Source: a virus. Taken from it: DNA of 64,000 nt. The notes beneath the pieces were generated by a model. That model saw only the letters and a program-made list of their open reading frames with translations, was not told the origin of the DNA and searched no databases. The stretch is from positions 52,700-116,699 of the IMG/VR virus record IMGVR_UViG_3300018405_000014; one strand, given 5' to 3'. This document shows positions 24,073 through 30,621 of this stretch, in pieces. Every line of letters begins with the position of its first letter. Position 1 is the stretch's first letter. The position numbers and the translations under genes were made by a program.

Positions 24073-25614
24073 TTACACCCCAAGGAGGATACCGAGTGAG
24101 AGAAGATTGGCTTGCCCATCACGCAGCGAGGCACCGATCCACGTCTGATAATGACGTGCCAATACTTCAGCAGCATGCGGGGTCATCAGGTCAGTGGAGA
24201 ACACGAAATCGACCGCTTGGTCGTTTTCAGCGATAGCCTGACCTTCGGGGGTGAGCATACCGTGATCGCCAAGGAAGCGAAGGATCTGTGTGTGGATACC
24301 ACGGACTTCGGCGGCTTGTTCGCCGTACGCTTCGGCATCCCAGACCATGGGTTCGACCAGAGATTCGTTGGAATTGGTTTCACCGTCTTCCTCCTCCTCT
24401 TCAAGGTCTTCGTCTTCTTCCTGCTCTTCGGATTCAGGCTCCTCTTCCTCTTCGACTTCGGTTTCAATAGCGTCTTCGTCGATCGTGTCGGCGTTGGCTA
24501 CTTCTTCCTCTTCGTTATCGAAGTCGTCACCTTCCTCTTCTTCCTCAGGGAGCTCTTCCTCCTCTTCGGGAAGCTCCTCTTCTTCGACTTCTTCAGGGAG
24601 TTCTTCTTCCTGCTCGTCGTCGAGGTCGGTTTCTTCCTCTTCTTCAGACGCCTCTTCAAGATCGGGGTCTTCTTCAAGAGGTGCTTCTTCCTCTTGTTCC
24701 TGATCATCCTCGTTCGGGACGAGTTCCATTTCGTCATCGGTCATGGAAGTGTCGTCCATAACATCGTTCTGCTCGTCGTCAGACTCGGACTCGTCGAGCG
24801 TTTCTTCTTGCTCTTCGTCGTCCTTGGGTTCAGCATCCGACTGGATGCTGTTGACAGAGGTGCCTTCCTCGAACTGGATACCGACCGGGTTGTCCTGGCG
24901 ATGCTTTTCGATCAGATCGCCCAGCTTGTCCGCTTCGTCGCTGCCGACAGCCTGAGCGTCTGCGCGAATGGCTTCAGCCTGCTCAAGCACAGACTCATGG
25001 GCCTTGGTCACCAACTGTTCGATGCGATCAACGGCATCGCTCATTTCACCGAGGACTTGCGTCTGTTCCAACGATTCCATCGACACACCGAGCTTGTCAG
25101 CATACGAGCCAAAGCAGCGGGTGACGCTTTGAAGCAGAGGTGTGGCGGCCGCTACCGGGAAGGATTCCATCGATAGGACCGAGCGAATGGCACCAATGTA
25201 GTTACGATGGATAGCCAGCATCTCCATCGACAGGATCAGTTCTTCCTGCGAGGCGTGAGTGGCGCGTTCGCTGGTATGGAAAGCTACAGGTTCTTCTGCA
25301 TCGGCCTTGGCTTGCAGAGCGTCTTCGATCTGCTCGACTTCGGTCAGACGAGGGGTCAGGACATCCTGCATGATCAGCTCGACCCGGACCTGTGGTTCTT
25401 CAACACCGTCAACGGCTACGAGGTCCTGTTGGTGGTCTGCTTGCTCAAGAACATTCTCGGCCAACACCTGGAAGGCGGTTGCAGAGGCATCTTCCATCGA
25501 CGGACTGCTGAGCAGGGCACGCCCTACACTCATCAGGCTTTCCAGGCTGGTGCGGTAGTTCTGGGCTTCGTTAAGCATGACGGCTGCAGTCGGTTTGCTT
25601 GCGGTGTGGCTCAT
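24073..25614 (-). CDS. Acidic inner-body-like virion protein with S-x-E cleavage sites
   Basis: 513 residues. The N-terminal half is helical and dotted with S-x-E sites (TSLESL, SPSMEDA, LSMEML, LSMESF, VSMESLEQ), as in phiKZ capsid and inner-body proteins processed by the prohead protease. Residues about 265-430 are an extreme Glu/Asp run with ELPEEEEE repeats. The last ~85 residues form a small folded domain (GIHTQILRFLGDHGMLTPEGQAI). An acidic region could be a scaffold, a DNA mimic or a propeptide removed during head maturation. AGAGGATTCATAGA precedes the start. It is divergent from the helicase gene by 49 nt. Confidence 0.65.
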   Translation of the reverse strand: MSHTASKPTAAVMLNEAQNYRTSLESLMSVGRALLSSPSMEDASATAFQVLAENVLEQADHQQDLVAVDGVEEPQVRVELIMQDVLTPRLTEVEQIEDALQAKADAEEPVAFHTSERATHASQEELILSMEMLAIHRNYIGAIRSVLSMESFPVAAATPLLQSVTRCFGSYADKLGVSMESLEQTQVLGEMSDAVDRIEQLVTKAHESVLEQAEAIRADAQAVGSDEADKLGDLIEKHRQDNPVGIQFEEGTSVNSIQSDAEPKDDEEQEETLDESESDDEQNDVMDDTSMTDDEMELVPNEDDQEQEEEAPLEEDPDLEEASEEEEETDLDDEQEEELPEEVEEEELPEEEEELPEEEEEGDDFDNEEEEVANADTIDEDAIETEVEEEEEPESEEQEEDEDLEEEEEDGETNSNESLVEPMVWDAEAYGEQAAEVRGIHTQILRFLGDHGMLTPEGQAIAENDQAVDFVFSTDLMTPHAAEVLARHYQTWIGASLRDGQANLLSLGILLGV

Positions 25615-25663
25615 TCTATGAATCCTCTTCCATTATACTCCTAGTTAAAAGGAATATTTTCAA

Positions 25664-28600
25664 ATGTACGCCAATTTCTCGCGTCTGTTAGGGTTGATCT
25701 CCGTGAAGGAGACCGGCTCTCACATTATAGTCAATGGAATACCTGGGCTCAGGTTCTCTAAAGACGTATACAATCACTGGAAAACTAGCAAGTTGAACAA
25801 CAACATGTTCACTGCTATTTCGCGAAGTGGCGTAAAGTTTCCCAAGTTCTACGCCATCGAAGTTCTGTACATGTTGGATCAACTGATCCAATCCCGTCGG
25901 ACGTATGTGGGTCGGCGGACGCTACAGCGTGTACGCGATGAGTTGATTGCTGGCACGTGGCTGCGCAACATAGGTCTGGGTGATTTCACCTCCAGGCTTA
26001 ACATGTCGGCACTGAAGGACTTGACAGTCACATTATTTCCCCATCAAATTAACTTTTTACAGCATTACGACAGAGCTACGTTTGAATACTCGCTCAATGG
26101 AATGTTGATGGACGCGGCAGCAGGATCGGGTAAGGCTCAGCCTCTTGACGCTAAAATCAAGGTACCTGGTGGTTGGGCCACTATGGGTGACATGCGCGTG
26201 GGGAGTCAGGTGATTGCGCCGGACGGTACGACCGTCAATGTGTCGGGTGTTTATCCTCAAGGTGTAAAAGACATCTATGAAATTGAGTTCGTCGATGGGC
26301 GGAAAACCAGGGCGTGTGGTGAGCATCTCTGGGAATGTCACGACGGAAGGCAGAGTAATGTTTCCCGTCAGTGGGATGTCCGATCGACGTTGCGTATGAA
26401 AGAGATTTTAGAATCTCGCGGTGGTAATCGACTGTACGTTCCTCTCATCACTCCAGATGAAGGTACAGAGGTACAATACCCACTTGACCCGTATGTGCTG
26501 GGTGCGTTATTGGGCGACGGTGGTCTTCGATACCATGTTGCCTTTTGTACTCCAGATGCCGAGGTACTGGAGAATGTCCGTAATGCCTTACCAGACACCG
26601 TGGAATTCAAACGTATAACTGAAATCGACTACAGCATTGTGGGTGTTGAGCGCGGCGACAATGTACTGAGACGGATAGTTAGAGAACTTGGATTATTTGG
26701 TAAGTATTCTCACGAAAAACATATTCCTAGTGAGTATCTCCAGGGTTCCCGGACACAACGCCTGAGTCTTCTTCAAGGCCTCATGGACACCGATGGAACT
26801 TCGGATCAGCAAGGGACCGTCTCATTTTGCTCCAGTAGTAAGCAATTGGCGGAAGGTGTGCAGTATCTGGTTCGCAGTCTGGGTGGTATCGCCAGGATCG
26901 CTGTTCGGAAACCGACTTATACTTACAACGGCGAGACGCGAAATGGCCGCCCTGCATATCAAGTCAACATTCGTCACTCCAAACCATCCGAACTGTTCAG
27001 GTTAAAACGCAAACAGGAACGTTGTAAAGACGATGGACAGTATGCTGCAACGCTCAAACTACGTGTTAAGTCAATCAAGCTCGTCGGTCAGGAAGAGGCG
27101 CAATGTATCAGGGTGGATCATCCGAAACACCTGTACATCACCGATGACTTCATTGTCACCCATAACACGATCTCGCAATACGCCACGGCCCATTGCTTGG
27201 GGGCTGACACCTCAGTGCTCGTTGTACCGAAGAACTCTGTGTTTGACGTCTGGGTCAAAACCATCAAGGTACTCTTCAAGCAGACGCCAGAGTACTGGCA
27301 CAGCCTGAGTGGAGAGGAATTGACTCTGGGCAAGAAGTACTACATCGTCCACTACGATTATCTGGAGAAGTTCGTGGCCTTCGTCGGGGCTAACAAAGGC
27401 AGCTTCGGCAAGGTCTACGTAGGGATCGACGAATCGCACAACTTCAACGAGCAGTCCAACCGGACCAACCTGCTGATCCAGCTCTGCCAGACCCTCAAGG
27501 CTCGAGATGTGATCCATGCATCGGGTACGCCATTCAAGGCCATGGGTTCTGAAGCCATCACCCTGCTGGCGACGATCTGTAATGACTTCACCCCTGAAGT
27601 ACAAGGGTCCTTCCGTAAGATCTTTGGCAAGGAGGCTAAGCGGGCGATTGAGATCTTGGCTAATCGAATCGGTATTGTCTCCTTCAAGGTGGTGAAAGCT
27701 GACATCGAGACGCCGGGTGTGGATTACCATGAGATCAAGGTACCGATGAACAACTCATCGGAATATACCTTGACCAGTGTCCGCGAAAAGATGAGCAAGT
27801 TTATCGATGAGCGTTTGGCCTTCTACCGAAAGGGGATGCCGGAGTATGAAAAACTCTACGCGACGTGCATGGACCTTCACGGGCAGACTGTAAAGGGCGG
27901 AATGGCCTCCGCAGCGTTCTCCGAATACCGACGTGGCGTGGCTCAACTTCGCAAGGGGTATGATCCAGTTACCATGAAGGATCTGGTGATGTACTGTAAC
28001 CGGTACGAGCTGAAGACCATTGTTCCCTCGCTACCTGAACGGTACCGCAAACCGTTCTTGAATGTCCGTGCCATCATCAAGTACGTTGACCTCAAGGTCA
28101 TGGGTGAGGCGTTATCTCAGGTATTGGGGCGCCTGCGCATCCAGTGTCACTTGGACATGCTACCCAACATGCCCTTGGATGAGATCATCGACAACGCGAC
28201 CACCAAAACGGTGATCTTCACCAGTTACGTGGAAGTGGTCAAGGAGCTTGAGAGCCTGCTGACGAAGGCGGGGTATAAACCCATGCTGGTGTACGGGGAG
28301 ACCAACAAGGACTTGCCGAACATCGTCAAGCGGTTTGAGAATGACGACGACATCAACCCTCTGGTGGCAACCTTCAAGTCCCTGTCGACAGCTGTACCGT
28401 TGACCATGGCCAACACAGTGGTGTTCACCAATGCCCCGTTCCGTGATTACGAACGGACGCAGACCATTGCCCGTGTTGACCGAATTGGACAGAAACATCG
28501 CTGCCATGTATACGAGACGTATCTCGATACCGGTGCAGAGCCGAACATCTCGACGCGCTCTAAGGACATCATGGCGTGGAGTAAATCTCAAGTCGAGGCT

Positions 28601-29506
28601 ATCCTCGGGGTCAGTGCTCCGGATGATCTGGAGACTTCGTTGGAGTCTTTGGTGGAGAACCCTAGTGCGACCTTGCCCGATGCTGAAGGTTTCATGGCAC
28701 GTTTGCAACAAGAGCTGCCAATCGACGTGGTCGAGGATGATGTGAGTATGGAGGGTCTATTTAGCAATGCCCCATCCGCAAACATCCATAAGACGGAAGC
28801 CGTTCTGGCAAAATTGAAGGAGACGTATCTTAATTCGTCTTGGAGGTCAAAGCAGAAGTTCAAGGAAGGCAAGCTTCGGCTTGAAAACAGTCACCTGACC
28901 GAGATCGCCAGAGTCAATCAGACCAAGCAGGTCATGGACAAATGGGTGGATGCAGTCAGAACCCGTAGTTCGAGCCTGGCCAGAACAGTCAGTGACTTCT
29001 CCAAGGGCTGGAAAGACCCCAGTAAGGTAGAGCGTTGGGCAGACGGAATCGAGACTGACACTCTGCACGGGGCTCGCAGTAAGCAGACAGTCACTGTCAT
29101 CCGGCTGGCCGACAAAATACCGACGATGAATGGTTACATCATCGGTGGTGTCGGCACTACGACTTATCTGAGCACCGATAAAGAGGTTCTTGACGCTGCT
29201 AAGCGGCTCGAAGCTCTGCTGGATCACGATGTCGTTTGGATTGACGAACTGCTCGATAAGGAGTTTTCTCACAAGAGATTTGGAGAGTTCCATCGTGGGG
29301 CCGACCACACTACCTTGCTCGATGAAATCTCCAGCAGCGATCTCTCACATGCCGAGGATGCCATAATGGTATACAGGGCGATCAAAAACACCATGAAGAA
29401 GGAAGAAGCTGACTTCGTTAACTCACCTGAGGCCAAGTTGTTTAAGGACCATCACAGTGCGATGTACAAAGCGCTGTGGGCACAGCTAACGAAATCCACC
29501 AAATAA
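25664..29506 (+). CDS. SNF2-type SF2 helicase, interrupted by an intein, with C-terminal S-x-E region
   Basis: The 1280-residue precursor yields a 936-residue protein after intein removal. The helicase motifs are split P-loop AAAGSGK^T, VLVVPKNS (Ia), VYVGIDESHNF (II), HASGTPF (III), TVIFTSYVEVVKEL (IV) and TQTIARVDRIGQKHRCHVYET (V-VI), the SNF2/RapA style. Beyond about residue 985 are SLESL and SMEGL sites, then a domain (YLNSSWRSKQKFKEG) shared with the next gene. The S-x-E sites suggest a protein cleaved and perhaps packaged in the head. The ~100-residue N-terminus is unassigned. AAAAGGAAT precedes the ATG. Confidence 0.8.
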   Translation: MYANFSRLLGLISVKETGSHIIVNGIPGLRFSKDVYNHWKTSKLNNNMFTAISRSGVKFPKFYAIEVLYMLDQLIQSRRTYVGRRTLQRVRDELIAGTWLRNIGLGDFTSRLNMSALKDLTVTLFPHQINFLQHYDRATFEYSLNGMLMDAAAGSGKAQPLDAKIKVPGGWATMGDMRVGSQVIAPDGTTVNVSGVYPQGVKDIYEIEFVDGRKTRACGEHLWECHDGRQSNVSRQWDVRSTLRMKEILESRGGNRLYVPLITPDEGTEVQYPLDPYVLGALLGDGGLRYHVAFCTPDAEVLENVRNALPDTVEFKRITEIDYSIVGVERGDNVLRRIVRELGLFGKYSHEKHIPSEYLQGSRTQRLSLLQGLMDTDGTSDQQGTVSFCSSSKQLAEGVQYLVRSLGGIARIAVRKPTYTYNGETRNGRPAYQVNIRHSKPSELFRLKRKQERCKDDGQYAATLKLRVKSIKLVGQEEAQCIRVDHPKHLYITDDFIVTHNTISQYATAHCLGADTSVLVVPKNSVFDVWVKTIKVLFKQTPEYWHSLSGEELTLGKKYYIVHYDYLEKFVAFVGANKGSFGKVYVGIDESHNFNEQSNRTNLLIQLCQTLKARDVIHASGTPFKAMGSEAITLLATICNDFTPEVQGSFRKIFGKEAKRAIEILANRIGIVSFKVVKADIETPGVDYHEIKVPMNNSSEYTLTSVREKMSKFIDERLAFYRKGMPEYEKLYATCMDLHGQTVKGGMASAAFSEYRRGVAQLRKGYDPVTMKDLVMYCNRYELKTIVPSLPERYRKPFLNVRAIIKYVDLKVMGEALSQVLGRLRIQCHLDMLPNMPLDEIIDNATTKTVIFTSYVEVVKELESLLTKAGYKPMLVYGETNKDLPNIVKRFENDDDINPLVATFKSLSTAVPLTMANTVVFTNAPFRDYERTQTIARVDRIGQKHRCHVYETYLDTGAEPNISTRSKDIMAWSKSQVEAILGVSAPDDLETSLESLVENPSATLPDAEGFMARLQQELPIDVVEDDVSMEGLFSNAPSANIHKTEAVLAKLKETYLNSSWRSKQKFKEGKLRLENSHLTEIARVNQTKQVMDKWVDAVRTRSSSLARTVSDFSKGWKDPSKVERWADGIETDTLHGARSKQTVTVIRLADKIPTMNGYIIGGVGTTTYLSTDKEVLDAAKRLEALLDHDVVWIDELLDKEFSHKRFGEFHRGADHTTLLDEISSSDLSHAEDAIMVYRAIKNTMKKEEADFVNSPEAKLFKDHHSAMYKALWAQLTKSTK
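26135..27166 (+). other. Intein with LAGLIDADG homing endonuclease
   Basis: 344 residues (158-501 of the precursor), inserted between Lys and Thr of the P-loop. The splicing blocks are an Ala-1 start AQPLDAKI, block B-like ACGEHLWEC, and a C-terminal DHPKHLYITDDFIVTHN followed by Thr+1. The two endonuclease motifs are VLGALLGDGGL and LLQGLMDTDGT. An Ala instead of Cys/Ser at position 1 implies the splicing route used by Ala-1 inteins. The endonuclease looks intact, so the element may still be able to home. Confidence 0.9.
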
Positions 29507-29544
29507 GTAATTGATGGGAGTCTAGGCTCCCTTAAGGAACTGTT

Positions 29545-30621
29545 ATGAGTAGTATTCTTTCTCGAGCACTTCACCCGACGACTCATCCAGCCGTAGCCAG
29601 TATGGAGTGCTTCAAATTGCTGACATCCATGGAGCAGGCAGCTGACGAAGAGCGTCAGGCAGCCGCCACAGTAAAGCTCTTGGAATCCATTTCTGAATTG
29701 AGCGACACCGACAAAGCAGATGAGTTGCTCGGTCACGTGTCTGAATTACAAGGGGTTGAACGTGAGCACGTCTCGCTGGAATCGCTAAGTGGTCTGCTGC
29801 CAGTTCTTCGAAAGCTGATCACCCCTGAAAAGGAACCCAGCAAAAGCCCGAAGGACTTCAAAGAACTCCAGGCGCTGTTCAACAAGTACTACCTCAATAG
29901 TGCCTGGCTCAGCAAGCAGACGCTGGTTGATGGTGAGGTTGATGGTGCCAGTATCGGTGAGACTTTGTCAAGACGTGGCAAGTTCAATGCCGGTACGTTC
30001 GCCGCCGACCTTTCCAAGTATGCCGGGGAACTCAAGTCGACCTATTCGAAGTATGTGCGTTCTATTGCACCTTACGCCGAAAAGATCCGGACACTGGATG
30101 GTCAGCTTGTCAGTCAGGTCAATGCGCTCAATGCCAAAGATAATGGCTACGACGCTCAGCTTATCAAGCTGGTCAAAGACGCTGTAGCAAAGATGGAGGC
30201 ACTCGAAGCCCCCGTTGTGCAAATGGACGGTAAGTTCGAGGCGTTCGGCGGCTGGACCACCATCGCCAAAAACGGTACCCTGACCGCTACGCTGACTCAC
30301 AAAGGCCCGACGCTCAAGACAGTTGCTACACTGACAAAAGAAGACATCGTGTCGGTGTGCAAAACCATTCTTGAGTTGTACGCGACGATTGCCGAACTGG
30401 GCAGTCTTGCCCCTGAGTTCTGCGACCTCAGCGACCGAGATCACGGGTTTGTTTCCTCGCTTAAAGGCGAATCCAAGAAGCTCTGGGAACAGTACGTACT
30501 GCAAACTTCCACGTTCGAGCAAATGCGTCGTCTGCTCTGGATGACAGGGGTTGCTACGGGTGTGAGTGAAGTGGCCCGTGTCTCGATCAAATGGATTGAC
30601 CGCTCCATTAGAACTGAATAA
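29545..30621 (+). CDS. Virion/inner-body-like protein sharing a domain with the upstream helicase
   Basis: 358 residues. The N-terminus has S-x-E sites (ASMECF, TSMEQA, VSLESLSGL), implying cleavage by the prohead protease near residue 75. The next segment FNKYYLNSAWLSKQTLVDGEVDG parallels LKETYLNSSWRSKQKFKEGKLRL in the helicase C-terminus, followed by similar helical sequence. The two adjacent genes thus carry paralogous C-terminal domains. Ribosome site AAGGAACTGTT. A small hairpin (GGGAGTCTAGGCTCCC, 29516-29531) lies between the genes. An ejected or inner-body protein is the likely class. Confidence 0.6.
   Translation: MSSILSRALHPTTHPAVASMECFKLLTSMEQAADEERQAAATVKLLESISELSDTDKADELLGHVSELQGVEREHVSLESLSGLLPVLRKLITPEKEPSKSPKDFKELQALFNKYYLNSAWLSKQTLVDGEVDGASIGETLSRRGKFNAGTFAADLSKYAGELKSTYSKYVRSIAPYAEKIRTLDGQLVSQVNALNAKDNGYDAQLIKLVKDAVAKMEALEAPVVQMDGKFEAFGGWTTIAKNGTLTATLTHKGPTLKTVATLTKEDIVSVCKTILELYATIAELGSLAPEFCDLSDRDHGFVSSLKGESKKLWEQYVLQTSTFEQMRRLLWMTGVATGVSEVARVSIKWIDRSIRTE

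Follow-up and report, generated by a model that had tools for sequence, protein, structure and literature searches.

A class 3 intein with a LAGLIDADG endonuclease domain in the P-loop of a SNF2-type helicase of the phiKZ gp203 family

The stretch of DNA that was analyzed (here called the window) comprises 64,000 nucleotides and corresponds to positions 52700-116699 of a 116,699-base IMG/VR virus record. It holds an open reading frame (25664..29506, plus strand) that encodes the precursor of a SNF2-type helicase of 1280 amino acids, or 936 amino acids without the intein that interrupts it. The codons for the Walker A sequence GSGK are found at 26123..26134 (+) and are directly followed by a class 3 intein with a LAGLIDADG homing endonuclease domain (26135..27166, +; 344 amino acids). 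As the last base of the GSGK codons is 26134 and the helicase is resumed by the Thr codon at 27167, the intein occupies residues 158-501 of the precursor, between Lys157 of AAAGSGK and Thr502. The C-extein (27167..29506, +) contains the remainder of the SNF2 motor and a variable C-terminal tail that starts around 28728. The helicase was assigned to phrog_62 (DNA helicase, E=3e-110), and the motor within the exteins was found to be SNF2-like in Pfam, with Helicase_C above the cut-off and SNF2-rel_dom slightly below it. On the minus strand, divergent from the adjoining helicase, lies a gene (24073-25614) whose product of 513 residues is of low complexity over a very long, acidic middle part rich in Glu and Asp; no PHROG match was found for it.

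The record nearest to the window (L017; 250,515 bases) shows about 96-97% DNA identity across most of the stretch compared. A homolog of the phiKZ nuclear shell protein is encoded by L017 and by three other relatives (E 4e-18 to 2e-21), and the phage of the window is therefore most likely related to the jumbo phages that form a nucleus (phiKZ-like). The record of the window, which is a fragment, did not itself contain the shell protein homolog, nor was a second intein found elsewhere in it.

The orthologs of the helicase are phiKZ gp203, PhiPA3 gp233 and EL gp166, and the PhiPA3 record itself names the phiKZ and EL proteins as similar. The intein-free phiKZ gp203 is annotated both as a helicase and as a structural protein. 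When the exteins were aligned with seven orthologs, the identity ranged from 32 to 73% and the homology ran across the motor in the phiKZ-like phages, as expected for a member of this family. The first-pass annotation had placed the intein exactly between the Lys and the Thr of the P-loop and had suggested a comparison with intein-free alleles. The coordinates and the alignment agree on this position: the 936-residue remainder aligns with the intein-free orthologs of Noxifer and pPa_SNUABM_DT01 (40% and 73% identity, respectively), where the site is an uninterrupted GGGKT or GSGKT, and in PhiPA3, HHBS36_1, SL2, FishSpeaker and EL the insertion is found at the identical codon. The Lys^Thr position has been termed a 'classic' P-loop insertion (PMC5050341).

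The ends of the intein read AQPLDAKIKV...DDFIVTHN. Its relatives match over the full length with up to 52% identity and E-values down to 1e-108, and matches were recovered in 757 phage records, which puts the identification as an intein, made on the basis of sequence, far beyond chance. All positions that define class 3 inteins are present as published (PMC3196547, PMC5222942). With the block numbering of PMC3196547, these are His64 (B:10) and Trp66 (B:12), which flank Leu65 in block B (26324..26332, +), the predicted initiating nucleophile Cys324 (F:4) in block F (27104..27106, +), and Thr342 (G:5), His343 and Asn344 in block G, followed by Thr+1 of the C-extein (together 27158..27169, +). 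We aligned 160 relatives, drawn from named phages, viral contigs and cellular genomes. The Cys at F:4, the Thr at G:5, the His at B:10 and the terminal His-Asn were invariant among them (160/160), and the Trp at B:12 was found in 159. The first residue of the intein (26135..26137, +) is an Ala and thus no nucleophile. It was Ala in 122 of the 160 aligned relatives and Ser in five; where residue 1 directly follows the P-loop Lys it is Ala in 72, and in others Ser, Gly, Asp, Val, Leu, Met, Glu or Gln. Such variability fits a residue that lacks a chemical role.

The Ala start, the THN end and the Thr+1 had been read correctly before, but the idea that Ala-1 represents notable chemistry does not hold, as Ala is the usual first residue of class 3 inteins, in which splicing is started by the internal Cys at F:4 (PMC3196547, PMC5222942). 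The Cys, His and Thr at these positions constitute a catalytic triad in Mch DnaB1 (PMC7664689). Nor does a SNF2-type host gene set the element apart, considering that splicing has been demonstrated for the class 3 intein in Snf2 of Deinococcus radiodurans (PMC3196547). The solved sequences nearest to the intein are the class 3 DnaB inteins 6bs8 and 6rix. The intein tree was made without class 1 and class 2 outgroups, and the putative membership of the class 3 clade is read from the signature and from the nearest relatives, which carry WCT. Among the relatives outside the helicase gene, 110 of 140 also follow the Lys of a Gly-rich P-loop, as judged by a simple pattern. By its sequence, the element is a well-preserved class 3 intein of a known kind, and class 3 inteins at the Lys^Thr of P-loops are common. 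That conserved motifs alone are no proof of activity is made clear by the class 3-like Arth_1007 intein, which is dead and had lost the Cys at F:4 and the His at B:10 (PMC3196547).

Both LAGLIDADG-type motifs are retained, as claimed in the first-pass annotation. Block C (26492..26521, +) reads YVLGALLGDG and block E (26768..26797, +) reads LLQGLMDTDG, and the acidic residues are in place in both (Asp128 in LGALLGDGG; Asp218 and Asp220 in LLQGLMDTDGT). In Pfam, LAGLIDADG_3 was matched with E=1e-8, and PF14528 and PF05204 scored above cut-off. An AlphaFold2 model of the intein, built from a 60-sequence alignment, reached a mean pLDDT of 95.8 and a pTM of 0.93, and was compared with known structures using Foldseek and VIA-align. 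The model as a whole superposed on PI-SceI (Z 27.8, 336 residues), and its splicing part on the class 3 DnaB intein 6bs8 (Z 20.5, 1.4 A, 123 residues), while the predicted endonuclease part has the LAGLIDADG fold as found in PI-SceI, PI-PfuI and I-DmoI. The model thus predicts a Hint (hedgehog/intein) fold combined with a LAGLIDADG endonuclease, where the absence of an intein-like fold would have spoken against an intein, and together with the motifs and the Pfam matches it agrees with the earlier description of an intein whose homing endonuclease looks intact.

The distribution of the intein over the helicase family is strongly mosaic. We found this codon occupied in 20 of 88 orthologous helicases and empty in 68, and 11 changes of state are needed on the helicase tree, at least 10 of which are forced by well-supported branches. 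The occupied L020 and the empty L025, for instance, are close sisters on this tree. Of the phiKZ-like phages that were listed, SL2 alone is occupied; the other 45 records, phiKZ included, matched at 80-90% identity, with only 74% of the SL2 query covered in the matches listed, and in phiKZ, which was checked individually, the site is empty. Within Pawinskivirus, the inteins of HHBS36_1/PS119XW (Ser-1) and of BRkr (Ala-1) share only 62% DNA identity, whereas the N-exteins are 98.5% and the C-exteins 99.4% identical, and HPP-Temi is empty at the site. The occurrence of such divergent inteins within near-identical exteins implies that alleles were replaced or separately acquired at one codon. The state of the endonuclease varies as well. 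The SL2 intein has lost much of the domain together with the Asp residues of the motifs (GEN, DTCG), and in the inteins of EL and kin the LAGLIDADG motifs are absent altogether. The phiPA3 gp233 intein, in contrast, is a full-length relative in which the motif Asp residues are in place. Taken together, the comparison suggests that the intein of the window is mobile and probably was so recently. The occupied and the empty alleles have only the codon-level P-loop consensus in common, and a recognition sequence could not be read from them.

The comparison with L017 revealed a tract of low divergence (25010..27351) that spans the intein and both flanks. Its 2342 nt contain 7 differences, against an average of 3.4% over the 27 kb compared, which means that the divergence within the tract is about ten times below that of the surroundings. 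The segment score was 57.7, with 12.8 for the next best segment, and was reached in none of 1000 shuffles, a control that ignores the clustering of differences along the genome. Neither the N-extein nor the intein shows any amino-acid change relative to L017, and the dS of the C-extein is 0.105. The tract reaches 1125 nt beyond the intein on the upstream side and 185 nt on the downstream side, and includes intergenic DNA and part of a neighboring gene, so that constraint on the intein alone is an inadequate explanation. We consider it a candidate co-conversion tract, which a recent conversion event around the intein would explain, although it concerns one pair of genomes and ordinary phage recombination could have had the same result. 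HHBS36_1 and PS119XW were considered as a second case, as their inteins are identical and the flanks nearly so, but the block of low divergence (9271-16799 of L249) is unspecific and the neighborhood is mosaic throughout. In distant pairs of occupied and empty alleles (L020/L031, L021/L030, SL2/L085) no clear rise in identity towards the site was seen, as would be expected where old tracts are erased. The mosaic distribution and the low-divergence tract together lend indirect support to the predicted cutting of intein-free alleles by the endonuclease.

Based on the above, the element is very probably a class 3 intein with a LAGLIDADG endonuclease, residing at the Lys^Thr of the phiKZ gp203-type helicase of a jumbo phage, that splices by way of Cys324 and homes. 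We infer the splicing from the class 3 signature and the known biochemistry, and the homing from the intact motifs and the comparison of relatives. In the proposed mechanism Cys324 would attack the bond between Lys and Ala1, assisted by His64 and Thr342 and with Trp66 packed against it, after which the N-extein would be held on Cys324 as a branched thioester and then be transferred to Thr+1. Asn344 would cyclize with the help of His343 and the exteins would be joined to restore GSGKT, with no chemical part for Ala1. The endonuclease would cut the conserved, uninterrupted P-loop codons of a related phage in a co-infected cell, and repair from the intein-bearing copy would transfer the intein along with flanking DNA.

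Some alternatives deserve consideration. The intein may splice while its endonuclease is inactive or has stopped homing, in which case the distribution would reflect older events, vertical inheritance and ordinary recombination. The decay of the endonuclease in relatives at the same site (SL2, EL and kin) is in line with this, as is the faster evolution of the endonuclease part, which has 58.6% amino-acid identity to L020 against 76.2% for the splicing part. Nevertheless, considering that the two motifs are intact, Asp residues included, that the domain is modeled at high confidence and that the low-divergence tract holds the intein, we regard this as unlikely. It is quite improbable that the intein serves as a switch, in which slow or conditional splicing, for example redox-controlled via Cys324, would time the activation of the helicase. 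ATP binding is not expected of an unspliced P-loop, and a DnaB intein of mycobacteria has been reported to respond to oxidative stress in its splicing (PMC6195587), but most orthologs are empty at the site, implying that there is no general need for such a switch. A defective class 1 intein, in which Ala has replaced the nucleophile at residue 1 with loss of splicing and an inactive helicase as the result, is very improbable. Non-conservative changes of residue 1 do block class 1 splicing (PMC3196547), but the class 3 signature is complete, Ala-1 is shared with the majority of the relatives in many genes, and helicase and intein form one open frame with an N-extein and intein unchanged in amino-acid sequence relative to L017. 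A class 2 intein of the KlbA type, which also lacks a nucleophile at residue 1 and relies on Thr+1 for a direct attack on the N-terminal junction, is hardly credible, as class 2 is known only from KlbA genes (PMC3196547) and the host here is a SNF2-type helicase, and as C324 is invariant in the 160 relatives; both the class 2 and the defective class 1 reading of Ala-1 were rejected on the complete WCT signature.

If the class 3 intein does home, its endonuclease could have a further effect. The intron-borne HNH enzyme gp210 of phiPA3 has been shown to confer an advantage against phiKZ (PMC11620839). By analogy, the intein endonuclease might act as a weapon between nucleus-forming phages, by cutting the helicase P-loop of intein-free competitors in the same cell and lowering their yield, which we consider speculative and rather unlikely. 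If true, it would extend the finding on phiPA3 gp210 and phiKZ from introns to inteins. As the intein of phiPA3 gp233 is full-length and phiKZ gp203 is empty, the question of gp210-type interference applies to this intein also. PMC11620839 makes no use of the word 'intein', which is also absent from a review on nucleus-forming phages of 2025.

On the intein tree, the intein of the window groups with those of L017 and L020 in the same gene, and the next grouping consists mostly of jumbo-phage inteins in several different P-loop genes. Examples of closest kin across genes are EL ORF39 with the FishSpeaker SNF2 intein, and AerS_266 with the CF8 SNF2 intein. In L017, the nearest phage, another helicase-like gene contains a second intein that is 45% identical. 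It likely follows that the intein has moved within the helicase gene in the short term and between P-loop genes in the long term. The second intein of the L017 phage is also of class 3, is located at GGGK^T (L242, G001:C1:229500-233500, at about 231065-232090) and apparently starts with a Met (MERATNH...VTHN, between GGGK and Thr).

In the records examined, intein-bearing members of the helicase family do not carry an intein label. RefSeq and other records (L003, L006, L008, L248) label the SNF2 helicase as 'DarB-like antirestriction', and other genes with similar inteins go under labels like terminase, RNA polymerase beta subunit and gyrA; such labels were possibly carried over through the shared intein sequence. 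The helicase of PA1C (L245) has a frameshift inside the intein, which is either a sequencing error or a real lesion, and is annotated as two overlapping helicase genes. SA002 (L009), which has the most identical intein relative among the named phages (52%), likewise has its helicase split over two annotated genes (RAD2/SF2 helicase 1 and 2), although the intein frame is free of stops.

The region 28728-30586, which holds the C-terminal tail of the helicase and the next gene, is wholly unlike L017 while the DNA on both sides matches, and by this comparison a cassette of about 1.9 kb is swapped relative to L017. The helicase tails of the relatives are modular, and those of L017 and L025 are homologous to a separate downstream protein of DT01 (39-46% identity). 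A YLNxxWxxKQ block is present in the helicase tail (28826) and in the next gene (at 29890; gene 29545-30621), as well as in the tails of relatives. Given the annotation of phiKZ gp203 as a structural protein, the block is possibly a virion-targeting or packaging module. A pairwise BLASTP of the last 212 residues of the helicase against the downstream gene was not significant, and a search for relatives with the downstream gene gave no match; the two are connected by this short block and by the better-matching tails of relatives only.

Comparison with known systems places the element as follows. The Mycobacterium class 3 DnaB inteins (Msm DnaB-1, 6bs8; Mch DnaB1, 6rix) have WCT, the His at B:10, the THN end, the Hint fold (1.4-1.9 A) and a helicase host in common with it, but these are mini-inteins without an endonuclease in the replicative helicase DnaB, whereas the intein of the window has one. 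The Snf2 intein of D. radiodurans shares the class and the SNF2-family host, but resides in a bacterial gene. The inteins of PhiPA3 gp233, HHBS36_1, SL2, FishSpeaker, EL gp166, CF8 and BUCT660 share the gene, the Lys^Thr position and WCT, at 27-49% amino-acid identity; some of these seven have lost the endonuclease and that of HHBS36_1 starts with Ser. PI-SceI (the VMA intein) has the whole-length fold and the two-motif LAGLIDADG domain in common, but splices as class 1 (Cys-1) and is hosted by a yeast vacuolar ATPase. Finally, PhiPA3 gp210 is a homing endonuclease within a conserved gene of a nucleus-forming phage that targets the uninterrupted gene of a relative (PMC11620839), but it is an HNH enzyme within an intron, where the element of the window is an intein. 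One codon of one phage gene, which is either empty, occupied by different inteins or occupied by inteins at several stages of endonuclease decay among closely related phages, presents a clean natural experiment. Some of these phages (phiPA3, phiKZ, SL2, Pawinskivirus) infect Pseudomonas aeruginosa, and homing, allele replacement and a possible interference between nucleus-forming phages in co-infections are directly testable.
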